A stretch of DNA of 63,708 nt from an uncultured Lachnospiraceae bacterium (lineage in GTDB: Bacteria; Bacillota; Clostridia; Lachnospirales; Lachnospiraceae): NCBI GenBank assembly GCA_902768735.1, contig CACXMK010000006.1:1-63708 (forward strand), in the 5' to 3' direction. Each line of letters begins with the position of its first letter. Position 1 is the first letter of the stretch. This document shows, in pieces, positions 30,752-41,304 of the stretch. Made by a program: the position numbers and the translations under genes. A model generated the notes under the pieces. It was not told the DNA's origin. It saw only the letters and a program-made list of their open reading frames with translations, and did no database searches.

Positions 30752-32377
30752 TTACTTGCTCAGATCCACACTGCGGATGATCTTACGCAGCGGCAGGACG
30801 GACTTCGGATTGACGGACAGCTCGTCTACGCCGGCGCGCAGGAACCACTCAGTCAGGGTCGGGTCTGCGCCGAGCTCGCCGCAGATACCTACCCAGATGC
30901 CGTGCCTGTGACCTGCCTCGACGGTCATCTGGATCGCCTTGAGGACTGCCGGATGATGCGTGTCGGAGAATCTCTCCAGCTTCGCGTTCTGGCGGTCGAT
31001 CGCGCAGAGATACTGTGTCAGGTCGTTGGTGCCCAGTGAGAAGAAATCAACTTCTTCAGCCAGGTCGTCCGCAACGAGAACTGATGCGGGAGTCTCGATC
31101 ATGATACCGAGCTCATACTTGCCAATCTTGTAACCTTCCTTGATCAGCTCTGCCTTGCACTCCTCGAGGATCGCCTTCGCCTCAACAAGCTCCCACTTGC
31201 TGATGATCATCGGGAACATGATTCCCAGATTGCCGTATGCGGATGCGCGAAGAAGCGCTCTGAGCTGTTTCTTGAAGAACGGCTTCCTGGTAAGGCAGAT
31301 ACGGATCGCTCTGAAGCCAAGCGCGGGGTTCTCTTCCTTGTCAAGGTTCATATAGTCGATCGTCTTGTCCGCGCCGATATCGCAGGTACGGATAACGACC
31401 AGCCTGGGAGCCAGAGTCTCAACAACGCGCTTGTAAGCCATGAACTGCTGCTCTTCTGTCGGCTCCTCTTTGCTGTTGAGGTAGACGAACTCGGAGCGGA
31501 ACAGGCCTACGCCTTCTGCGTCATTTTCATTGACAGCGCCCAGATCGGAAGGACCGCCGATGTTCGCATAGACGCGTACGCTCCTGCCGTCGATCGTCGC
31601 GCTGGGTTTGCCCTTGAGTTCCTGAAGAAGCGCCCACTTCTTGACGTCTTCGTCGTGCTTCTTTGTCAGAGTCTCGAGCAGATCCGCCGTAGGCTCAATA
31701 TAGACGCAGCTGTTATAACCATCAAGGATCGCCATCTTGCCATCCCAGCTGTCATCGATCTCTTTGCACTGGATCAGTGAAGGCAGGTTCATGGAGCGGG
31801 CAAGGATCGCGGTGTGGCTGTTGGAAGAGCCTTCTCTCGTGATCATGCCCAGAAGAAGGGACTTGTCAAGCTTGACTGTCTCCGAGGGAGCGAGGTCCTC
31901 AGCAACGAGGATCGAGGGCTCAGTGCCCTGCATGCTGCTCGCGTCATTGCCCATCAGGAAGTCGAGAACGTCAGTCTCAACATCGAGAAGGTCCGCGCTT
32001 CTGGCTCTCATGTAAGGGTCGTCCATCTCTGCGAACATCTGCGCATACTCGTCAAAAGCGGTCTTTGTCGCATATTCCGCACTTCTCTTCTGGCTTGTGA
32101 TGATCTCCTTAGCTGCATCCTGAAGATCCTCGTCCTCGAGCATCAGCTGGTGTGCCTCAAAGATGCCTGCACTCTCTTCGCCGGCGTCTCTCTTTGCCTT
32201 CTCGTACAGAACGCCCTGCTGATCGATCGCCTTCTGGACCGCTTCTTCGAAGCGCGCAAGTTCCTTATCGACATCCTCAACAAGACCCATATTGATGTCA
32301 TAGGTAGGAGCTTTGTAGATCTTGATCTTTCCGATACCGATGCCGTTCAGAATACTTTTACCTGTTGCAACTATCAT
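30752..32377 (-). CDS. ptsI: PTS enzyme I
   Basis: Enzyme I takes phosphate from PEP and passes it to HPr. The 541-residue protein has the phosphorylated His in GMITREGSSNSHTAILARS (near residue 190), the FRSEFVY and DIGADKTIDYMNLDKEENPA segments of the PEP-binding barrel, and the catalytic Cys in GICGELGADP. GGAGG precedes the start. It follows ptsH by 78 bases as one operon. Length is slightly under the usual 570. Confidence 0.97.
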   Translation of the reverse strand: MIVATGKSILNGIGIGKIKIYKAPTYDINMGLVEDVDKELARFEEAVQKAIDQQGVLYEKAKRDAGEESAGIFEAHQLMLEDEDLQDAAKEIITSQKRSAEYATKTAFDEYAQMFAEMDDPYMRARSADLLDVETDVLDFLMGNDASSMQGTEPSILVAEDLAPSETVKLDKSLLLGMITREGSSNSHTAILARSMNLPSLIQCKEIDDSWDGKMAILDGYNSCVYIEPTADLLETLTKKHDEDVKKWALLQELKGKPSATIDGRSVRVYANIGGPSDLGAVNENDAEGVGLFRSEFVYLNSKEEPTEEQQFMAYKRVVETLAPRLVVIRTCDIGADKTIDYMNLDKEENPALGFRAIRICLTRKPFFKKQLRALLRASAYGNLGIMFPMIISKWELVEAKAILEECKAELIKEGYKIGKYELGIMIETPASVLVADDLAEEVDFFSLGTNDLTQYLCAIDRQNAKLERFSDTHHPAVLKAIQMTVEAGHRHGIWVGICGELGADPTLTEWFLRAGVDELSVNPKSVLPLRKIIRSVDLSK

Positions 32378-32455: not shown

Positions 32456-32713
32456 TTAGAAGTTCTCTTTCAGGAATTTCTCGATTGCTGCTGCGCAGGC
32501 TTCTTCATCATCGCCATCGACCTGAACAATGATCTCGTCGTTCTGCTTGACGGCCATGCCCATAAGAGCAAGGAGCTTCCTCATATCGCAGCTCTTGTCA
32601 CCCTTCCAAACAGTGATCTTGGAGGTATATTTCTTAGCCTCTTTTACAAGGACACCAGCGGGACGAGCGTGGATTCCAAGGGGATCTGTAACTGTGAATT
32701 TGATTTCTTTCAT
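32456..32713 (-). CDS. ptsH: HPr phosphocarrier protein
   Basis: The start at 32713 has AAAGGAG upstream and gives 85 residues, the standard length. His15 sits in DPLGIHARPAG with Arg17. At position 46, where most Firmicute and E. coli HPr proteins have the regulatory Ser (KSIMGVM pattern), this protein has Lys in MRKLLALMGM, and no Ser lies between 42 and 54. Phosphorylation by HPr kinase at that site would be lost. This is the normal transport form in an operon with ptsI. Confidence 0.95.
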   Translation of the reverse strand: MKEIKFTVTDPLGIHARPAGVLVKEAKKYTSKITVWKGDKSCDMRKLLALMGMAVKQNDEIIVQVDGDDEEACAAAIEKFLKENF

Positions 32714-32947: not shown

Positions 32948-34816
32948 TCACTCAGCGTCAGCGCCAAGCTTGACATCCGAGAAGTCGTCGGAGTTGGTCA
33001 GAAGGACAACGACACAATCCGGGTGGTTGGCCTTCTTGATGGCCTCGCGGTCGAATGTCATGATGAGCTGGCCTGCCTTGACCTTGTCGCCCTCAGCGAC
33101 CAGATCCTCGAAGCCTTCACCGTTCATCGCGACTGTGTCGACACCGACGTGGATCAGGACTTCCATGCCCGCCTCGTTCGCAATGCCGATCGCATGCTTG
33201 GAATCAGCAACGGATGTGATCTCGCCATCGAAAGGAGCAAAGACAACGCCCTCAGTGGGATTGATGCCTACGCCTTCGCCGAGAACGCCGGAAGCAAACG
33301 TGTCATCCGGAATGGCTGCCTGCTCAACAATAGAGCCGACTGCGGGAGCGATGACCTTGCCTGCGTTGCAGCTGATGACTGCATTGGTGGGAGCTGTCAC
33401 CTGAGGAGCAGGAGCTGCTGCTTTCTTCTTGGGCTCTTCTTCCTTCCAGATCACGTTCGTGATCGCGAATGCAAGGCCGCCGGAGATAGCCAGAACGATC
33501 GTGTAAAGCAGAGCGTTGTTGATGGTCAGATAGCCGGGGATACCGGTCACGCCGTAAGCGGAAGCGCCGATTCCCATGAATGCCGCTACGAGTGCGCCTG
33601 CCGCGCCGCCGATCATACCTGCGACGAAGGGCTTGAAGAAGCGCATGTTCACACCGAAGATCGCGGGCTCAGTGATACCGAGTGCTGCGGACATGGAGGA
33701 AGGGATAGCAACAGCCTTGGTCTTCTGGTTCTTGCACTTGATACCTACTGCAAGGCAGGCGCCGAACTGTGCGAAGTTCGCCGCAGATGCGATAGGCATC
33801 CAGGTGTTGAGGCCCTTGGAAGCAAGCATGCCGGCCTCGATGACGTTGTACATGTGGTGCAGACCCATGACAACGGTCGCGGGATAGATAGCGCCCATGA
33901 CGCAGGAGCCGATCGGGTTGGAAACGAGCTTCTCCGCGCCGGAGAGAACGAGTGTCTCAAGACCGGAGAAGATGGGGCCGATAATGGTGAAGGTCACCAG
34001 TGCGGTAACCAGGACCGTGGTCAGAGGAGTCACGAACAGGTCGATCATTTCCGGTACTACCTTGTGCAGCTTGGCTTCAAGCTTGGACATAAACAGTACC
34101 GCCAGCATGACCGGAATAACGTGTCCTTGGTAACCCAGCTGGTTGATCTGGCCGAGCGTGTAGTTCTCGGTGATCTTGATGTGGCCGAACAGATACCATA
34201 CATCGTAGCCGTTCGCGGCGTTCCAGCCGTTGGTCAGAGCGGAGTGGATCATCATCAGACCGATAACGGCGCCGAGGAAGATATTTCCGCCGAAAACTCT
34301 CGCCGCGGAGATCGCAACGATAACAGGCAGATACGCAAATGCGGTGTTCGCAGCCATATCCAGGAATGCGAACCAGTCGGTGTCGCCAAAGCCGAGGCCC
34401 GGGATCTTCGCCAGCGCTTCGACCAGACCCATCATAAGACCGGATGCAACGATCGCAGGCAGGATCGGAACGAATACGTCGCCGATGGGCTTGAGCAGAC
34501 GGATGTACCAGGGCTGCTTTGCAGCAGCTGCCGCCTTGACGTCTTCCTTGGAAGCAGCGGACGCGCCTGTGATTGCCAGGAACTCGTCATAGACCTTGTT
34601 GACGGTGCCGGTGCCAATGATCAGCTGCAGCTGTCCGTTGGATTCGAACATGCCCTTGACGCCGTCGACGTTCTCGAGTGCTTCCTTGTTGACCTTGCCG
34701 TTGTCAGCGATGACAAGGCGCAGTCTGGTAGCGCAGTGTGCTGCTGATACAACGTTGGAGCCGCCTCCGATATTATCGGAGATCTCTTGGGCACACTTAT
34801 GATAATCTAATGCCAT
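32948..34816 (-). CDS. Sucrose-class PTS permease EIIBCA
   Basis: The 622-residue protein is a fused permease. EIIB (about 1-80) carries the phosphorylated Cys28 in SAAHCATRLRL. EIIC (about 100-460) has about ten membrane helices and ends in GITEPAIFGVNMRF, the conserved substrate loop of the glucose superfamily. EIIA (about 485-620) has VLIHVGVDTVAMNG with the active His. The EIIB and EIIC segments most resemble ScrA sucrose permeases, though trehalose or beta-glucoside are possible. A cre/LacI-type operator overlies its start of transcription. There is no sucrose-6-phosphate hydrolase in the window. Confidence 0.9.
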   Translation of the reverse strand: MALDYHKCAQEISDNIGGGSNVVSAAHCATRLRLVIADNGKVNKEALENVDGVKGMFESNGQLQLIIGTGTVNKVYDEFLAITGASAASKEDVKAAAAAKQPWYIRLLKPIGDVFVPILPAIVASGLMMGLVEALAKIPGLGFGDTDWFAFLDMAANTAFAYLPVIVAISAARVFGGNIFLGAVIGLMMIHSALTNGWNAANGYDVWYLFGHIKITENYTLGQINQLGYQGHVIPVMLAVLFMSKLEAKLHKVVPEMIDLFVTPLTTVLVTALVTFTIIGPIFSGLETLVLSGAEKLVSNPIGSCVMGAIYPATVVMGLHHMYNVIEAGMLASKGLNTWMPIASAANFAQFGACLAVGIKCKNQKTKAVAIPSSMSAALGITEPAIFGVNMRFFKPFVAGMIGGAAGALVAAFMGIGASAYGVTGIPGYLTINNALLYTIVLAISGGLAFAITNVIWKEEEPKKKAAAPAPQVTAPTNAVISCNAGKVIAPAVGSIVEQAAIPDDTFASGVLGEGVGINPTEGVVFAPFDGEITSVADSKHAIGIANEAGMEVLIHVGVDTVAMNGEGFEDLVAEGDKVKAGQLIMTFDREAIKKANHPDCVVVLLTNSDDFSDVKLGADAE

Positions 34817-34860: not shown

Positions 34861-34874
34861 TGAAAACGATTACA
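34861..34874. promoter_or_regulatory. LacI/CcpA-type operator at the PTS promoter
   Basis: TGAAAACGATTACA matches every position of the cre consensus TGWNANCGNTNWCA. It lies about 14 bases past the -10 box, near the expected transcript start. The reverse complement is identical to the site at 38967-38980. Confidence 0.85.
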
Positions 34875-34888
34875 GTACTAACCATTTT

Positions 34889-34917
34889 ATTTTAATTTAA
34901 TATTTATTGTATGTAAA
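34889..34917 (-). promoter_or_regulatory. Promoter of the PTS EIIBCA gene
   Basis: On the minus strand TTTACA (-35, 34912-34917), a 17-base AT-rich spacer and TAAAAT (-10, 34889-34894) precede the operator. Confidence 0.75.
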
Positions 34918-34974: not shown

Positions 34975-35817
34975 CTATACGAGTCCCAGCTGCGCAAATG
35001 CCTTAGCCATTCCGTCTTCCTGGACAGAGGGACATACGATGTCGCTGATCTTCTTGAGCGCCTCGGCACCGTTTGCCATGCATACGCTTGTGCCGACCGT
35101 CTCTATCATCTCCAGGTCGTTCATGCTGTCGCCGAAACCGATCGTATCTTCCACCGGCACGCCGAGATATTCGCAGACCCTGAGGATCCCGCGCCCCTTG
35201 TCGTACTTGCGGTTGATCAGTTCTCCGTTGATGCATCTGTGGGCCGGATCCGTGATCTCCTGCACGACAAAGTTGTATCTGTCCTCCAGAACCTCTTTCG
35301 CCGGGTCCAGCTGTTCGGGATGCAGGCACATGATGACGACTTTGTAGGCCGGCGTGCCGTCGTACTCGCTCATCGGGCGGATGTGGAGGCTGCTGGCCAG
35401 CGCCTTTCGCCACCGCTCGATCTCGCTGTTTCCCTTGCCTTCCGGACCCGCGTTGCTCTCCAGGAAAGCCCCGAGGTTTTCATCGCCGAAAGCTCCGTCC
35501 CTGCATTCAACCGTGCAGAAAACTCCTGTCTCGTGGAGTTTTTGCACTGCCAGTTCCGACTCCTCCTTTGTCATCGGCATATCATAGATGACCTCATCTC
35601 CGACTGTGATATAACCGCCGGCACAGGCGACCACGCCATCGAATCCGTATTGCAGCAGCGGTGACAGCATTCCCGGATTTCTTCCCGAGCAGAGAAATAC
35701 CTTATGTCCCTTCTTCTGCGCTGCAGCGATCGCCTTCAGCGCACTTTCCGGCGGCTCGTTGGAGCCCGGCATTGTGAGTGTTCCGTCGATATCTAAAAAT
35801 ACCAGTTTTTTATCCAT
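34975..35817 (-). CDS. Cof-type HAD-IIB sugar phosphatase
   Basis: The start at 35817 has AAAGGAG and gives 280 residues; a 46-residue longer reading is unsupported. HAD motif I is FLDIDGTLT, motif II FLCSGRN, motif III a Lys region, and motif IV GFGDSMNDLEM. Cof-type members dephosphorylate sugar phosphates or FMN-like compounds; the substrate is not evident. It is the third gene of the amylosucrase-like, lacI, HAD operon, 49 bases after lacI, which suggests a sugar-phosphate substrate. Confidence 0.9.
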   Translation of the reverse strand: MDKKLVFLDIDGTLTMPGSNEPPESALKAIAAAQKKGHKVFLCSGRNPGMLSPLLQYGFDGVVACAGGYITVGDEVIYDMPMTKEESELAVQKLHETGVFCTVECRDGAFGDENLGAFLESNAGPEGKGNSEIERWRKALASSLHIRPMSEYDGTPAYKVVIMCLHPEQLDPAKEVLEDRYNFVVQEITDPAHRCINGELINRKYDKGRGILRVCEYLGVPVEDTIGFGDSMNDLEMIETVGTSVCMANGAEALKKISDIVCPSVQEDGMAKAFAQLGLV

Positions 35818-35866
35818 GTGACTCCTTTCTGCCAGAATTCTGTCAAAACAGCGCCTCCGCCCCGTC

Positions 35867-36913
35867 TCAGATCGATCCCCTCTCAATGATCCTGTAACCC
35901 AGCATGAGGTGCTCTGCGAAGCGATCTTGGGAAAGAACCTGCCGGATACCGACACGAAGATCGGCCCCGTCGCCGGAAGTCCCCTCAGGTTCCTCCTCTC
36001 CGATGAGCCGCAGCAGCATACGCGCCGCCTCCGTTCCGCATCGCCTCTGGTACAGCCGCACCGTCGAAAGTTCCGGCTCGGATACCAGGTCTGCCCAGTT
36101 GTCGCCGACTCCCGCGATACTGACGTCCTCCGGGATCCGGCGCCCCTTCCTCTTGAGGGCTTTCATGGCGCCGTGTGCGATCACATCCGTGGCGCACATG
36201 ACAGCGTCGATGTCAGGGTGCTCTGCAAGAAGTTCCAGCATCGCCTCGTACCCGCTCTCCGAATTGAAATCGGCGATCCGCCGCGGCACGTTGTCCGCAT
36301 CAAGGCCCGCTTCCCTCAGCGCTTCCTGCATTCCCTCCCGGCGCAGCATCCCTGCCGCCTTATCTTCCTCAAAGACGCCGATATAGGCGATGCGCCTCCT
36401 GCCCTTTCTGATCATCAGCGACGTCATCTCCTTAACCCCGTTCTTGTCGTCGTGATAGACACAGGGCAATCCGTCAAACTTTTGGCCGGTGACCACGAGG
36501 GGCACTCCGCAATTTTCAAGAGAGAGCTTCTTGATGTCGCTCAGCGTCGTCGCCATGAGGATGATGCCCGCGACGCGGTTGCTCACCATCATTTCCAGAT
36601 ACTGGAGCTCTCTGTCCTTGCGCGCGTCGGAATAGCCGAGCAGCGTCAGATAATCCTTCTCCAGCAGTTCCTCCGCGATCCCGTCCATCAGCTGGTTGAC
36701 AGACTCCGAAAAGATCCGGGGCACGATGATGCCGATCTGGCGCACTTTACCGGTGCGCATGGTCTTAGCCATCATGTTCGGGCGGTATCCCGTCTCTTCG
36801 ATCGCGCGGGCGATCTTTTCTTTTTTCTCTTTGCTAAGCGGACCTCCGTTGAGGTACCGGCTGACAGCGGCGGGTGAAACTCCCGCCAGCTGCGCCACTT
36901 CCTTGATCGTCAT
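35867..36913 (-). CDS. LacI-family regulator (ScrR-like)
   Basis: The 348-residue protein has the N-terminal helix-turn-helix and hinge (TIKEVAQLAGVSPAAVSRYL, then NGGPLSKEKKEKI and RPNMMAKTMRTG), typical of sucrose regulators, and a periplasmic-binding-protein-like effector domain. Such proteins usually repress by binding cre-like palindromes. It lies 41 bases after the GH13_4 gene and before the HAD gene in one operon. The two identical operators in this locus are its likely targets, with autoregulation through the shared promoter. Confidence 0.93.
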   Translation of the reverse strand: MTIKEVAQLAGVSPAAVSRYLNGGPLSKEKKEKIARAIEETGYRPNMMAKTMRTGKVRQIGIIVPRIFSESVNQLMDGIAEELLEKDYLTLLGYSDARKDRELQYLEMMVSNRVAGIILMATTLSDIKKLSLENCGVPLVVTGQKFDGLPCVYHDDKNGVKEMTSLMIRKGRRRIAYIGVFEEDKAAGMLRREGMQEALREAGLDADNVPRRIADFNSESGYEAMLELLAEHPDIDAVMCATDVIAHGAMKALKRKGRRIPEDVSIAGVGDNWADLVSEPELSTVRLYQRRCGTEAARMLLRLIGEEEPEGTSGDGADLRVGIRQVLSQDRFAEHLMLGYRIIERGSI

Positions 36914-36954
36914 GAGGGACCCTTCCTTACATCAGAATACGTCAAAACTTTATC

Positions 36955-38916
36955 TTACTCTTTTGCAGTCTCCTGCGCAGGCTCTTTTTTGGTCCTTTTT
37001 CTGGTCACTTTTTTGACCTCTTTTTTTGACTCGACCTTGGGATGTTTCTTCTTGGTCGTGGGTCTTGCAAAGGTCGCCATGATCCACACGAAGCCGTAGC
37101 CCGGAACGGTGACCGCTCTTGCGGACTTGCGCTCGCCGGTGATCAGGTCGTAGTAATCCTCTCTCTCGTTGACCCATGCGATCTGCTCATTCTCGCTGAA
37201 ATTGAAGAAAGCGAGGAGCTTCTCGCCGTTGTGATACCGGCCAATGCCCAGAATGTGGTCGTTCCAGGGCTCGATGATCCAGGTCTCCGCATCGTTCTCG
37301 AAGACGCTGTGGTCGGCGCGGATCTCCTCCAGCTGCCGGAGCGCGTGGAAAATGATGTTCTGCCTGGTGCCCTCAACATTGCGGAGCTCCGCATCGTCCC
37401 AGTTCATATCGCCCCTGTGCAGATAACGGCTGTCTTCCGCCTTGATCGGGTCGTCATGGTAGGTGTAGTCGTTGAGCTGGCCGATCTCGTCGCCTGCGTA
37501 CAGCACCGGAATGCCGCTCTGTGTCAGGAGGAAGGCGTGCAGCATGATGTCAAGGCTGATGCCCTTCTTGATCTTCTGCTCATCCCCCTCGTACTCGCCC
37601 GCCTCAATACCGCAGAGCGAGGCTGTCGTGCCACAGAGTCTCGCATCGCCCAGGCGCGGATCGTCGTTGTAGAGCTCGCCGCGCGCGTCGCTGTTAAATC
37701 CAAGGCCCCTGAGATAGTCGTTGAGGTACTTCTTGTGGGGCACCTCGGAGACACCGAACTGCTTGAGGAACTCGTAGTCGAGGCCCCATCCGATGTCATC
37801 GTGGCAGCGCAGGTAGTTCAGGAACGTGTACTCGTGAGGCAGCTCAAAGACCGCTTCCATCTGGTGGCGGAGCAGGCGCACGTCATGTGTCGCTACAGTG
37901 TGCCATGTGCTTGCCATAGTCGTGACATTGTACAGCATGTGGCACTCCGGCTTCTCCACTGTGCCAAAATACGGAACGACCTTGCTCGGTTCCATGACAA
38001 CTTCGCCAAGGAGCAGCGTTCCGGGGCAGACGACCTCGGAAGCCATGTGCATCAGGCGCACCAGCGTATGGACCTGAGGAAGGTTGCGGCAGGAAGTGCC
38101 GATCTCCTTCCAGATATAGGGCGTCGCGTCAAGACGGATGATGTCCACGCCGTGGTTGCAGAGGTTGAGCATGTCTGCCGTCATGTCGTTGAAGACGACG
38201 GGGTTGGCGTAGTTGAGATCCCACTGATAAGGCCAGAACGTGGTCATAACGACCTTGCCCGCTTCCTCGCACCAGGAGAAATTGCCGGGTGCGGTCTGCG
38301 GGAACACCTGGGGAACCGTCTTCTCAAACTCGTTCGGAATGGTCCAGTCGTCATAGAAGAAGTAGCGGTCCTGGTACTCTTTCTCACCGGCCCTCGCGCG
38401 CTTCGCCCACTCGTGGTCCTCGCTCGTGTGGTTCATAACGAAGTCCAGACAGACGCACATGCCGCGGGTGTGGCAATCGTCAGCCAGATCGGCAAGGTCT
38501 TCCATCGTGCCAAGCTCAGGCTGGACCTTGCGGAAATCGGAGACCGCGTAACCGCCGTCGCTGCGGTCCTTGGGGCTCTCAAGGAGAGGCATCAGGTGAA
38601 GGTAGTTGACGCCGCACTCCTGAATGTAGTCGAGGTGGCTGCGGACACCCTTGAGGTTGCCGGCAAAGCAGTTCGTGTACATGAGCATGCCGAGCATGTC
38701 ATTGCCCTTGTACCAGTCGGGCGCCGCCTCACGCGCCATGTCCCACTCCTTGAGGAGAGGGCTTCTCTTCTCGTAGTACTCGAACATCATGTCGCAGAAG
38801 TAGTCAAAAGCCTGCTGGTCGTTGTGATAGAGCTCGCTGTACAACCACTTCAGCTCGTCATAGTGCCTGGCCAGGCGCTTTTTAAAGACCTGGTCCCATT
38901 TCTTGTTTTCAAACAT
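36955..38916 (-). CDS. GH13_4 amylosucrase-like enzyme
   Basis: The start at 38916 has AGGAGG upstream and gives 653 residues. The sequence follows Neisseria amylosucrase block by block (SDGGYAVS, DFVMNHTSEDHEWAKR, YQWDLNYANP, IIRLDATPYIWKEIGTSC). The catalytic set is Asp263, Glu305 and Asp373. The Asp of SDGGYAVS and the Arg of EDSRYLHR match the pair closing the glucose pocket. The residue matching Neisseria Arg226 (a polymerisation determinant) is Pro202, so glucan synthesis may be weaker. There is no signal peptide. It ends in a Lys-rich tail of about 35 residues. Amylosucrase or sucrose hydrolase are both possible. Confidence 0.88.
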   Translation of the reverse strand: MFENKKWDQVFKKRLARHYDELKWLYSELYHNDQQAFDYFCDMMFEYYEKRSPLLKEWDMAREAAPDWYKGNDMLGMLMYTNCFAGNLKGVRSHLDYIQECGVNYLHLMPLLESPKDRSDGGYAVSDFRKVQPELGTMEDLADLADDCHTRGMCVCLDFVMNHTSEDHEWAKRARAGEKEYQDRYFFYDDWTIPNEFEKTVPQVFPQTAPGNFSWCEEAGKVVMTTFWPYQWDLNYANPVVFNDMTADMLNLCNHGVDIIRLDATPYIWKEIGTSCRNLPQVHTLVRLMHMASEVVCPGTLLLGEVVMEPSKVVPYFGTVEKPECHMLYNVTTMASTWHTVATHDVRLLRHQMEAVFELPHEYTFLNYLRCHDDIGWGLDYEFLKQFGVSEVPHKKYLNDYLRGLGFNSDARGELYNDDPRLGDARLCGTTASLCGIEAGEYEGDEQKIKKGISLDIMLHAFLLTQSGIPVLYAGDEIGQLNDYTYHDDPIKAEDSRYLHRGDMNWDDAELRNVEGTRQNIIFHALRQLEEIRADHSVFENDAETWIIEPWNDHILGIGRYHNGEKLLAFFNFSENEQIAWVNEREDYYDLITGERKSARAVTVPGYGFVWIMATFARPTTKKKHPKVESKKEVKKVTRKRTKKEPAQETAKE

Positions 38917-38966: not shown

Positions 38967-38980
38967 TGTAATCGTTTTCA
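38967..38980. promoter_or_regulatory. LacI/CcpA-type operator at the GH13_4 promoter
   Basis: TGTAATCGTTTTCA (TGAAAACGATTACA on the minus strand) is identical to the PTS operator in inverse orientation and matches the cre consensus. It abuts the -10 box, so binding would block initiation. Confidence 0.88.
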
Positions 38981-38985
38981 TTATA
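38980..38985 (-). promoter_or_regulatory. -10 box of the GH13_4-lacI-HAD operon
   Basis: TATAAT on the minus strand overlaps the operator by one base. A TTGCAC -35 lies 18 bases upstream; it is weak. Confidence 0.7.
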
Positions 38986-39117
38986 CTTTACGGGGATAGT
39001 TTTGTGCAATTCTGTTAACGCCGAATATAGTTCCCTCTTTTTGTGCACTTTTTTACCGGCCTGACGCCGGGGGCGATTTTCTCTGTCAACCTCCGCGGCA
39101 TCGCAATATCACGCCAT

Positions 39118-39207: not shown

Positions 39208-41304
39208 TCACCGCACAAGAACAGCGGCAGATTCAGGCTCCATTTCGATTTCAAGGATGCCGTCCACTACTTTATAGACCGTGCGGGGATACGCGAGGAA
39301 TCCGCTGCGGCCGGTGTGAAAACGCAGTTTCATGCGCGCGTCCTCCGGAACGCCCGCGTAGATGACCGGGATCCGCACTTTCATGGGTTCCTCGCGATTG
39401 TTGAGGACAATCACCGCGGAGGTCTCGCCGTTGAATCTTCCGTAACAGAGCATGTTCCTTGCGTCCGTCAGGCGGATGACCGAACCGTCCTTAAAGCACC
39501 CGACCTCCTTATGCATCTTGATGAGCTCTTTGTGGAAGCGGATCATCTCCTTGTCTTCCCTGCCCCAGGGGTACGTGCGCCGGTTGTCGGGATCCGTAAA
39601 GCCGCAGACCCCCGCTTCGTCCCCGTAGTAAAGGGTCGGCGCACCGGGCCATGTCATCTGCACGACGGCCGCTTCCCGATAGACGCTCTCGCGGACACCT
39701 TCTGACGCGGCTTCCGTCCCGAGATCCGCAAGACGCCCCACGCGGCGCGCCGTTCTTGTCAGAAAGCGCGAGTGGTCATGGTTGGACAGCTGGTTCATGC
39801 TGCACATGAGCGGGTCCTGCGGCATATCATTTTGCCCTTTCCAGAGCATCGTCTCCCAGAATCTCCCGGCGTCACCGAGCCTCTCAGGCCTGAAGTCGTC
39901 TCCATGCTTCTCCATCCCGGTCAAAAACCAGGTGAGCGGTTCCATGAACCCCTCGTAGTTCATGATCGTATCCCACTCGCCGCCCCGCAGCCAGTCCGCC
40001 GAGTCCAGGTAGTTCTCGGCGAGGATGATCGCCTCGGGATTCGCTCCCTTGACCGCATGGCGGAAGCTCTGCCAGAACCTGTGGTTGAACGCCTCCGAAT
40101 GCCCAAGGTCCGACGCCACATCGAGGCGCCAGCCATCCACGTTATATGGGGGCGATACCCACTTTACCGCGACGCGCAGGATCTCCTCGCAAAGCTCCTT
40201 CGACTTTTCGTAATTGAGCTTGGGCAGAGTCTCCATCCCCCACCAGCTGTCATAGGTGTCATTGTCCGGCCACCGGTCCTTTTGGAATGCAAAATAATCT
40301 TTGTACGGTGAATCTTTTCTGCCGAAGGCCCCCGGCGGATAGTTCCCGGTGTTAAGGTATATCTTCTCCCTGTCCAACCACCGGTGAAATGAGCCGCAGT
40401 GGTTGAAAACGCCGTCCAGGATCACGCGGATCCCGCGCATGTGCGCCTCTCGGACCAGGTTCGCGAACAGCCTGTCGCTCGCCTCAAGATTTGCGGAATC
40501 CGTCACACGTATCTTGTATTTGCCGGCTTCAGTGTTCTGCAGCGATCCTTCCGGAAGGAGTGTCGGCGCGTCGCGCACTATTTTGCCAAAATGCGGATCG
40601 ATATGGCTGTAGTCCTGCGTGTCGTACTTGTGGTTCGATGGCGATACGAAGATCGGGTTCAGGTAGATCGCGTCGATCCCCAGTTCTTCCAGGTAGTCCA
40701 GTTTGTCGATGATACCCTGCAGGTCTCCGCCGTAGTGCTCGCGCGTATCATCAGGCGCAGGCGGGCAGTACCAGTCATCCATGTGTTTGACCTGTCCGTT
40801 ATTATAGGCGTACTCGCCGGTCACGACATCGTTGCCGGGATCTCCGTTATAAAAACGGTCCGTAAAGATCTGGTACATCACTGCGCCTTTGGCCCACTCC
40901 GGCACTCTGAAATCCGGGGCAAAATACCACCAGCCCTCGGTATTCGGTGACTTTCCGCTTTTATCTCCCTCCGCCCACTCGATACCGGTGCGCTTATAGA
41001 TCACTTCTCTGCCGTTGTCCGCGACCCTCAGGCGGAACGCGTACCGAAGCGGGTCCCATCCCGTCTCCACTTCTACTGTGAAGTAGATGAACCACCTGTC
41101 CTCGCGCTCCACGCTCATCGCGATCTCTCCGCCGTCGGTCAGAAGAACAGCGCGGTCGATCTCTCCCGCCGCCGTGCGCAGCCGGATCCGGATCGCATAC
41201 CGCTTTCTTCCCCTCCTCGATGGCGACCTGATCGCGAACATTTTCAGGAACCCTTCCGTCTGGTCCGTAAATAACGCCTTTGTGTTTATACACTCCTGAG
41301 GCAT
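39208..41304 (-). CDS. GH13 alpha-glucan hydrolase (neopullulanase/cyclomaltodextrinase-like)
   Basis: The 698-residue protein has an N-terminal beta domain (about 1-130, CBM34-like position), then the GH13 barrel. Typical segments are VMYQIFTDRFYNGD, DAIYLNPIFVSPSNHKYDT and VILDGVFNHCG; the nucleophile Asp is in DGWRLDVASD (about residue 396), the acid Glu in AIILAEN (about 425) and the Asp in SNHDHSRF (about 510). The C-terminal beta domain ends near EPESAAVLVR. There is no signal peptide, so it would act on internal alpha-glucans or maltodextrins. GAAAGAGG precedes the start at long spacing. A terminator-like hairpin lies only 40 bases upstream of the start. Confidence 0.88.
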   Translation of the reverse strand: MPQECINTKALFTDQTEGFLKMFAIRSPSRRGRKRYAIRIRLRTAAGEIDRAVLLTDGGEIAMSVEREDRWFIYFTVEVETGWDPLRYAFRLRVADNGREVIYKRTGIEWAEGDKSGKSPNTEGWWYFAPDFRVPEWAKGAVMYQIFTDRFYNGDPGNDVVTGEYAYNNGQVKHMDDWYCPPAPDDTREHYGGDLQGIIDKLDYLEELGIDAIYLNPIFVSPSNHKYDTQDYSHIDPHFGKIVRDAPTLLPEGSLQNTEAGKYKIRVTDSANLEASDRLFANLVREAHMRGIRVILDGVFNHCGSFHRWLDREKIYLNTGNYPPGAFGRKDSPYKDYFAFQKDRWPDNDTYDSWWGMETLPKLNYEKSKELCEEILRVAVKWVSPPYNVDGWRLDVASDLGHSEAFNHRFWQSFRHAVKGANPEAIILAENYLDSADWLRGGEWDTIMNYEGFMEPLTWFLTGMEKHGDDFRPERLGDAGRFWETMLWKGQNDMPQDPLMCSMNQLSNHDHSRFLTRTARRVGRLADLGTEAASEGVRESVYREAAVVQMTWPGAPTLYYGDEAGVCGFTDPDNRRTYPWGREDKEMIRFHKELIKMHKEVGCFKDGSVIRLTDARNMLCYGRFNGETSAVIVLNNREEPMKVRIPVIYAGVPEDARMKLRFHTGRSGFLAYPRTVYKVVDGILEIEMEPESAAVLVR

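Follow-up and report, generated by a model that had tools for sequence, protein, structure and literature searches.

In Enterococcus faecalis, maltose import by a phosphotransferase system (PTS) is reportedly joined to a phosphatase, the maltose 6'-phosphate phosphatase MapP. Here we analyse a stretch of 63,708 nucleotides, called the window, from an uncultured Lachnospiraceae bacterium (assembly GCA_902768735.1, contig CACXMK010000006.1, positions 1 to 63,708), in which genes for a PTS permease, a HAD phosphatase and an amylosucrase-like enzyme of family GH13_4 stand together. The window makes up one of the 157 contigs of a draft genome with a completeness of 85.5%. Its unit would share the logic of the MapP route: PTS import, a phosphatase and an enzyme for the plain disaccharide. 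The sugar is different, and the MapP route is said to use another phosphatase family and a phosphorylase instead of a transglucosylase. What we see here of a phosphatase for a PTS product, joined to a plain-sugar enzyme, are the counts with which HAD and PTS genes occur together.

The amylosucrase of Neisseria polysaccharea (NpAS; GH13_4, PDB 1g5a) has the catalytic residues and the D144/R509 pocket that are also present in the window GH13_4. The latter differs by eight changes on the +1 side and by its presumably PTS-fed unit. In Synechococcus PCC7002, the operon spsA-sppA-frkA-amsA brings sucrose-phosphate phosphatase (SPP), fructokinase and amylosucrase together (PMC11046441); there the phosphatase serves sucrose synthesis and not PTS import, and it belongs to the SPP family, unlike the window HAD. 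The fructan/sucrose cluster of Faecalibacterium prausnitzii holds a cytoplasmic amylosucrase, a LacI regulator and a fructokinase, and the lysate of the recombinant strain degraded sucrose (PMC8894670). This cluster is fed by an ABC transporter, and as listed it names no HAD or sucrose PTS. The sucrose 6F-phosphate phosphorylase of Ruminococcus gnavus (GH13_18), strictly specific for fructose-phosphorylated sucrose, is like the window enzyme a GH13 protein in the sucrose locus of a gut Firmicute (PMC6521584). Finally, YigL of E. coli is a HAD phosphatase coupled to PTS sugar phosphates, with stress relief by efflux; unlike the window HAD, it has no amylosucrase partner named in its description (PMC4021124). 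The combination of PTS, HAD and amylosucrase-type enzyme was not found described in the open-licence PMC literature searched, as far as its available text goes, which is no proof of absence.

A conserved PTS-HAD-GH13_4 unit

The three genes form a conserved unit with common operators. On the minus strand they are transcribed in the order second GH13, GH13_4, LacI, HAD, PTS EIIBCA, HPr and Enzyme I (EI). The parts of the unit are:

36955..38916, minus strand: amylosucrase-like enzyme of family GH13_4 (653 aa), ending in a short lysine-rich tail
35867..36913, minus strand: LacI-family regulator, whose presence tracks the operator in relatives
34975..35817, minus strand: HAD-IIB (Cof-type) phosphatase, proposed sucrose-6-phosphate phosphatase
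32948..34816, minus strand: PTS EIIBCA permease, sucrose-type, just outside the interval of the original prediction
32456..32713, minus strand: HPr, with His15 present and Lys at the Ser46 position
30752..32377, minus strand: PTS Enzyme I (EI)

The original prediction had grouped the permease, the GH13_4 enzyme and the HAD, and relatives bear this out. Our first set comprised 40 loci fetched around GH13_4 matches (38 from within the genus, and L101 and L102 from outside it), after a search with a GH13_4 match in 53 of 99 genomes; 33 of the 40 have a PTS close to GH13_4, and 27 a HAD. In the best 80 of 584 confirmed GH13_4 loci from a named collection, four of which duplicate first-set loci, the numbers are 26 and 27; here the sequence of three HAD loci (L114, L141 and L152) reaches less than 1.4 kb downstream of GH13_4, with no PTS visible. 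Clostridium vitabionis strain YH-T4B42 (L105) is a named relative that carries the unit. The nearest records of that collection are mostly uncultured rumen or gut Lachnospiraceae and other Clostridia.

Three settings of this GH13_4 clade can be told apart: PTS units, loci without PTS that have ABC-permease-like, fructokinase-like or GH32 genes, and loci with neither. PTS-type units carry HAD, HPr and EI, often LacI and sometimes fructokinase-like or GH32 genes. Among the 103 GH13_4 rows with visible context, 50 have HAD and PTS, 7 only the PTS (L075, L078, L085, L090, L092, L099 and L111), 46 neither, and none a HAD alone; the other 13 of 116 rows were dropped for showing less than 2500 bp downstream and no PTS, 3 of them with a HAD at the contig end. 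The settings are intermixed on the tree of the 116 proteins, where the PTS state changes at least 14 times and the HAD state at least 17 times.

The genus gives the same picture. A GH13_4 match occurs in 49 of its 61 genomes, own included, and at an orthologue threshold of at least 50% identity 36 genomes have both HAD and PTS, 3 HAD only, 8 PTS only and 14 neither (p 6e-6, without correction for ancestry). Of the three genomes with HAD only, G006 (at L094) and G022 (at L066) have a fragment of a PTS gene where a contig ends. One genome (G028) has the LacI-HAD-PTS-HPr-EI block and GH13_4 on different contigs; another (G039) has the block and no GH13_4 match, its contig ending just upstream of LacI.

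As our best reading, which we hold to be about as likely as not, we propose that the PTS makes sucrose-6-phosphate, the HAD frees sucrose, and GH13_4 makes alpha-glucan and fructose. LacI would control the sucrose regulon. EI, HPr and EIIBCA would import sucrose as sucrose-6-phosphate, the HAD would strip the phosphate to free plain sucrose, and GH13_4, judged by its family, would transfer the glucosyl unit to alpha-glucan and release fructose, which a PfkB fructokinase would pass to glycolysis. GH32 sucrose-6-phosphate hydrolases elsewhere in the genome are probably a parallel catabolic branch, so that PTS sucrose could split, for energy via GH32 and for storage via HAD and GH13_4. It is a tentative extension, which we judge slightly less probable than an even chance, that such a dephosphorylating PTS route to glycogen-like storage runs across most of the genus and is the chief or sole fate of the PTS sugar in lineages like G015.

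If true, Lachnospiraceae of rumen and gut would possess a PTS-fed sucrose-to-glycogen route, which would do for sucrose, with other proteins, what the MapP route does for maltose. A conserved HAD phosphatase would gain a function, and a genome with a sucrose PTS but no GH32 should then not be taken as unable to use sucrose.

Operators common to the PTS and GH13_4 genes

The LacI-type operator occurs in exact form only twice in the window, at a distance of about 50 bp ahead of GH13_4 and 44 bp ahead of the PTS gene. Each of them adjoins a promoter-like site, identified by consensus match only:

38967..38980, no strand assigned: LacI-type operator upstream of GH13_4, exact match to TGWAANCGNTTWCA
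34861..34874, no strand assigned: LacI-type operator upstream of the PTS gene, exact match to TGWAANCGNTTWCA
38980..39008, minus strand: sigma-70-like promoter before GH13_4, consensus match only, 10/12
34889..34917, minus strand: sigma-70-like promoter before the PTS gene, consensus match only, 10/12

Sigma-70-like consensus matches number 12 in the region, against 6.4 expected. With two mismatches allowed, the operator pattern has 11 matches in the window against 5.15 expected, and 2 of 100 shuffles reach 11. With at most one mismatch, it precedes the PTS gene in 34 of 55 loci, compared with 53 of 4000 random 250-bp pieces. All 34 are among the 39 loci that have LacI, and none among the 16 that do not (Fisher 7e-10, shared ancestry ignored). 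Upstream of GH13_4, the exact operator is present in 31 of 45 loci with LacI and in 1 of 68 without, shared ancestry again ignored. The scan that covered the PTS genes also found the site upstream of 1 of 42 LacI genes and of none of 43 HPr, 46 EI, 52 HAD, 14 second-GH13 and 5 GH32 genes. GH13_4, LacI, HAD, EIIBCA, HPr and EI are apparently co-regulated, as far as operators and gene order tell.

Fructokinase-like genes were followed separately. No operator (at most one mismatch) was found in the stretches with such genes fetched from the own genome; in L152, L164 and L178 one exact site each lies about 33-42 bp before a more distant (38-44% identical) fructokinase-like match.

The operator pattern fits the consensus of a cre site, the target of CcpA with P-Ser-HPr. 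We disfavour this identity, as the operator tracks the LacI gene and Lys occupies position 46 in 38 of 45 HPr rows; on the other side, a glucose-type PTS gene on contig C13 of the same genome also bears the operator. That gene encodes 729 aa, and its operator lies about 60 bp upstream (L026:6264-6277), so the LacI regulon may be wider than sucrose. In the remaining HPr rows position 46 is Ser (5) or Gln (2), and His15 is invariant, which suggests that control of the unit's HPr by HPr kinase was lost in most of these bacteria.

The GH13_4 enzyme and its substrate

Among solved structures, amylosucrases are closest to the GH13_4 protein (7esh, E 1e-139). Throughout the 116 GH13_4 proteins in our comparison, the residues D144, Y147, H187, F250, Q254, R284, D286, E328, H392, D394, R446 and R509 (NpAS numbering) are invariant, among them the Asp/Arg pair of the glucose pocket (D144/R509), whose conservation had been anticipated from the window. 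The equivalent of D393 is kept in 115, with Glu in one that is not the window's. The catalytic Asp/Glu/Asp of GH13_4 amylosucrases thus stands beside an intact D144/R509 pocket; the catalytic and glucose-pocket roles of these residues we take to be those of their NpAS equivalents.

We took 23 active-site and nearby positions from the alignment with NpAS, and compared 57 PTS-context proteins with 20 from other contexts, where no PTS is nearby and an ABC-permease-like, fructokinase-like or GH32 gene lies at most 8 kb away. In 11 of these 20 loci an ABC-permease-like ORF was recognised by motif within that distance, and one member of the group, L152, has a HAD at the contig end. A single residue is found throughout both groups at 19 positions; of the other four, two differ in one row, and those at NpAS 226 and 329 are more variable in either group. 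Because the 19 positions are the same with and without PTS context, the substrate of GH13_4 is most likely plain sucrose. Since sugar brought in by an ABC importer arrives unphosphorylated, the simplest reading is that the enzyme takes a plain substrate with a PTS nearby and without one.

The same comparison bears on the second answer that the original prediction had considered, namely that GH13_4 uses the phosphorylated PTS product directly. The enzyme is closely linked to the PTS, four congeners (G019, G020, G047 and G057) keep the two without HAD, and the +1 side is altered relative to NpAS. The classical product of a sucrose PTS, however, carries its phosphate on glucose, the very unit that the -1 pocket binds; this pocket is intact, and proteins from loci without PTS share the checked active-site residues. 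Basic residues are enriched in the PTS group at only two positions (in more than 80% of that group and fewer than 50% of the other), neither among the 23. We consider direct use of the phosphorylated sugar very improbable, and continue with plain sucrose as the substrate.

A C-terminal tail of 45-195 aa occurs in 26 of the 116 proteins (for example L063, L073 and L115). Such tails are mostly Lys-, Ala- and Pro-rich, histone H1-like, and a short version ends the window gene.

The permease and its sugar

The window permease scores 492.5 bits with the sucrose model TIGR01996 (cut-off 559.3), 500.3 with the beta-glucoside model TIGR01995 (614.7) and 360.9 with the trehalose model (591.95). Among ten scanned orthologues the sucrose model ranks first in seven, and in the other three it comes within 13 bits of TIGR01995. 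The other PTS genes of the genome, judged by eye from sequence and neighbours, resemble fructose, mannitol and two glucose/GlcNAc-type systems. The PTS sugar is likely sucrose by these comparisons.

A different PTS sugar was the third answer on offer, and the sub-threshold sucrose score of the permease gives it some room. The PTS would carry a beta-glucoside, glucose or another alpha-glucoside, and LacI would link general sugar uptake to storage; TIGR01995, a longer model, scores slightly above the sucrose model with the window permease, and the C13 operator is placed as such a link would have it. Against this stand the ranking in the orthologues, the fructokinase-like and GH32 genes near the unit in some relatives, and the existence of distinct trehalose-type (in congeners) and glucose-type PTS genes. 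Altogether we hold another sugar to be improbable, and retain sucrose.

Trehalose was set aside as a candidate: the window PTS is unlikely to be a trehalose system because congeners carry a separate PTS/TreC pair, with a permease about 35% identical to the window's (for example G024:C32 and G056:C140). In five loci (L076, L078, L085, L090 and L092) identity to the window is 88-90% for the PTS genes and only about 70-76% for the linked GH13_4 proteins, a hint that the PTS gene recombined or was transferred.

GH32 enzymes elsewhere in the genome

GH32 had been reported absent, and GH13_4 had been taken for the only disaccharide enzyme. Absence holds for the window and fails for the draft genome, where PF00251 (GH32) matches lie on five contigs; the genome also has GH4 and GH1 matches, and TreC-like matches below the TreC cut-off, so GH13_4 has company. 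The genome search that had been advised for a GH32 hydrolase or a fructokinase thus found both, the latter as a fructokinase-like PfkB gene at C1:12912-13895. Four GH32 proteins were scanned with scrB_fam (cut-off 356.4 bits), the fifth, on C133, being a fragment that runs off its contig end. Those of C48 (400.3) and C109 (364.9) pass, as for the classical PTS sucrose pathway; those of C117 (340.3) and C72 (272.0) fall below.

On this evidence PTS sucrose-6-phosphate may go to GH32 elsewhere, with GH13_4 storing sucrose from other importers and having no more than the regulon in common with the PTS, and the HAD acting as a YigL-like overload valve; YigL relieves PTS sugar-phosphate stress (PMC4021124). 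The two high-scoring GH32 proteins speak for it, and so do GH32 genes of the C48 type near the PTS unit in L099, L107, L110, L112 and L120, and the four congeners that drop the HAD and keep the rest. Also, HAD-less PTS genomes have more GH32 match rows than others (Mann-Whitney p 0.023, counting match rows and not genes, ancestry uncorrected). But no operator (at most one mismatch) was found on the five GH32 contigs, while PTS and GH13_4 have one each, and two genomes have the unit without any GH32, GH4, GH1 or TreC-like match. We regard this alternative as rather unlikely.

The genomes in question come from the 6 of 61 in the genus without a GH32 match (G015, G031, G056, G022, G002 and G048). 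The first three have PTS, HAD and GH13_4; G022 combines HAD and GH13_4 with a PTS fragment; at the thresholds applied, all three are lacking in G002 and G048. A GH32 hydrolase elsewhere, the finding that was to undo the prediction, is present in the own genome and without a match in G015, G031 and G056. G056 and G022 have GH1 and TreC-like matches, and G022 also GH4. G015 (99% complete) has PTS, HAD, GH13_4, LacI, HPr and EI with a fructokinase-like gene, and no GH32, GH4, GH1 or TreC-like (1e-60) match, GH65 and GH13_18 not having been searched; the same families are without a match in G031 (87% complete), where the unit is present and the search had the same scope. In G015 the PTS product thus needs another route, unless an unsearched GH65 or GH13_18 enzyme serves, and dephosphorylation by the HAD would provide one.

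The HAD phosphatase

The window HAD passes the Cof-type model TIGR00099 (140.6 bits, cut-off 137). Its HAD motifs and the cap motif GNSExxRWR are common to 54 orthologue rows, two of them duplicates. The alignment-based structure model (pLDDT 91) is predicted to be nearest to the Cof-type phosphatases 2pq0, 3fzq and BT4131 (1ymq). The HAD protein does not reach the cut-off of the SPP family TIGR01482 (69.8 bits, cut-off 107.15). With PF05116 it scores 26.5 bits (gathering 20.3), no stretch passing alone and the best being 203-254; the model superposes on the SPP structure 1s2o with a TM of 0.47.

Weighing the dephosphorylation route

Of the three answers first offered, prior removal of the phosphate by the HAD fares best, through the HAD-PTS association, the identity of the active site in and outside PTS loci, and the common operator. 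Several observations nevertheless weigh against it.

Those on the HAD come first. The association, strong in counts, is not proven by ancestry-corrected statistics: in an independent-pairs test with five supported pairs, HAD follows in four and opposes in none (p 0.125). G019, G020, G047 and G057 keep GH13_4, LacI, PTS, HPr and EI in a unit without HAD; in three of them a HAD of 33-36% identity is encoded elsewhere, G057 has no such match at 1e-25, and each of the four has 9-13 GH32 match rows. G049 pairs PTS and GH13_4 without HAD, with a GH32 adjoining the PTS; in G018 there is no HAD and just a short piece of the PTS, and L111 is also without a HAD. The modelled fold neighbours of the HAD are general Cof-type phosphatases and not SPP. 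Because two GH32 proteins pass the scrB_fam cut-off, PTS sucrose does not, by these scores, need the HAD in the window genome.

The other points concern the sugar and its fate. The permease and its ten scanned orthologues (493-547 bits) all stay below the sucrose cut-off. Compared with NpAS, the window GH13_4 clade differs at eight compared +1-side positions (A289P, F290Y, I330V, V331M, H332E, F399L, Q437N and N439D; the aligned chains are variants, so that some of the wild-type letters are presumed), so that the +1 side of the window enzyme is not that of NpAS and its reaction need not be amylosucrase-like glucan synthesis, as the changes may indicate. The amylosucrase of F. prausnitzii is likened to it by description only. 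A fructokinase-like gene lies near the unit in none of the 33 PTS loci of the first set, and no operator was found upstream of 13 fructokinase-like genes more than 45% identical to the own-genome one. In favour of the route, such a gene lies within 8 kb of 10 of 26 PTS-type units in the named collection (best 80 of 584).

Neighbouring genes and further pairings

Upstream of the unit lies one more gene of the same superfamily:

39208..41304, minus strand: second GH13, cyclomaltodextrinase/maltodextrin glucosidase-like; a neighbour, not a conserved partner

That this enzyme trims the product of GH13_4 had been suggested, and the case is weak: it is present in 18 of the 40 fetched loci, and a terminator-like hairpin separates it from GH13_4. 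Such hairpins number 12 in that region against 11.7 in shuffles, which is no excess.

In L083, L158 and L172, GH13_4 lies beside EI, and in L172 beside HPr too, with no sucrose-type PTS found nearby. The scrB-type GH32 gene on contig C48 of the own genome (L022:2220-4466) is directly followed by a different Cof-type HAD, a second pairing of sucrose enzyme and phosphatase.

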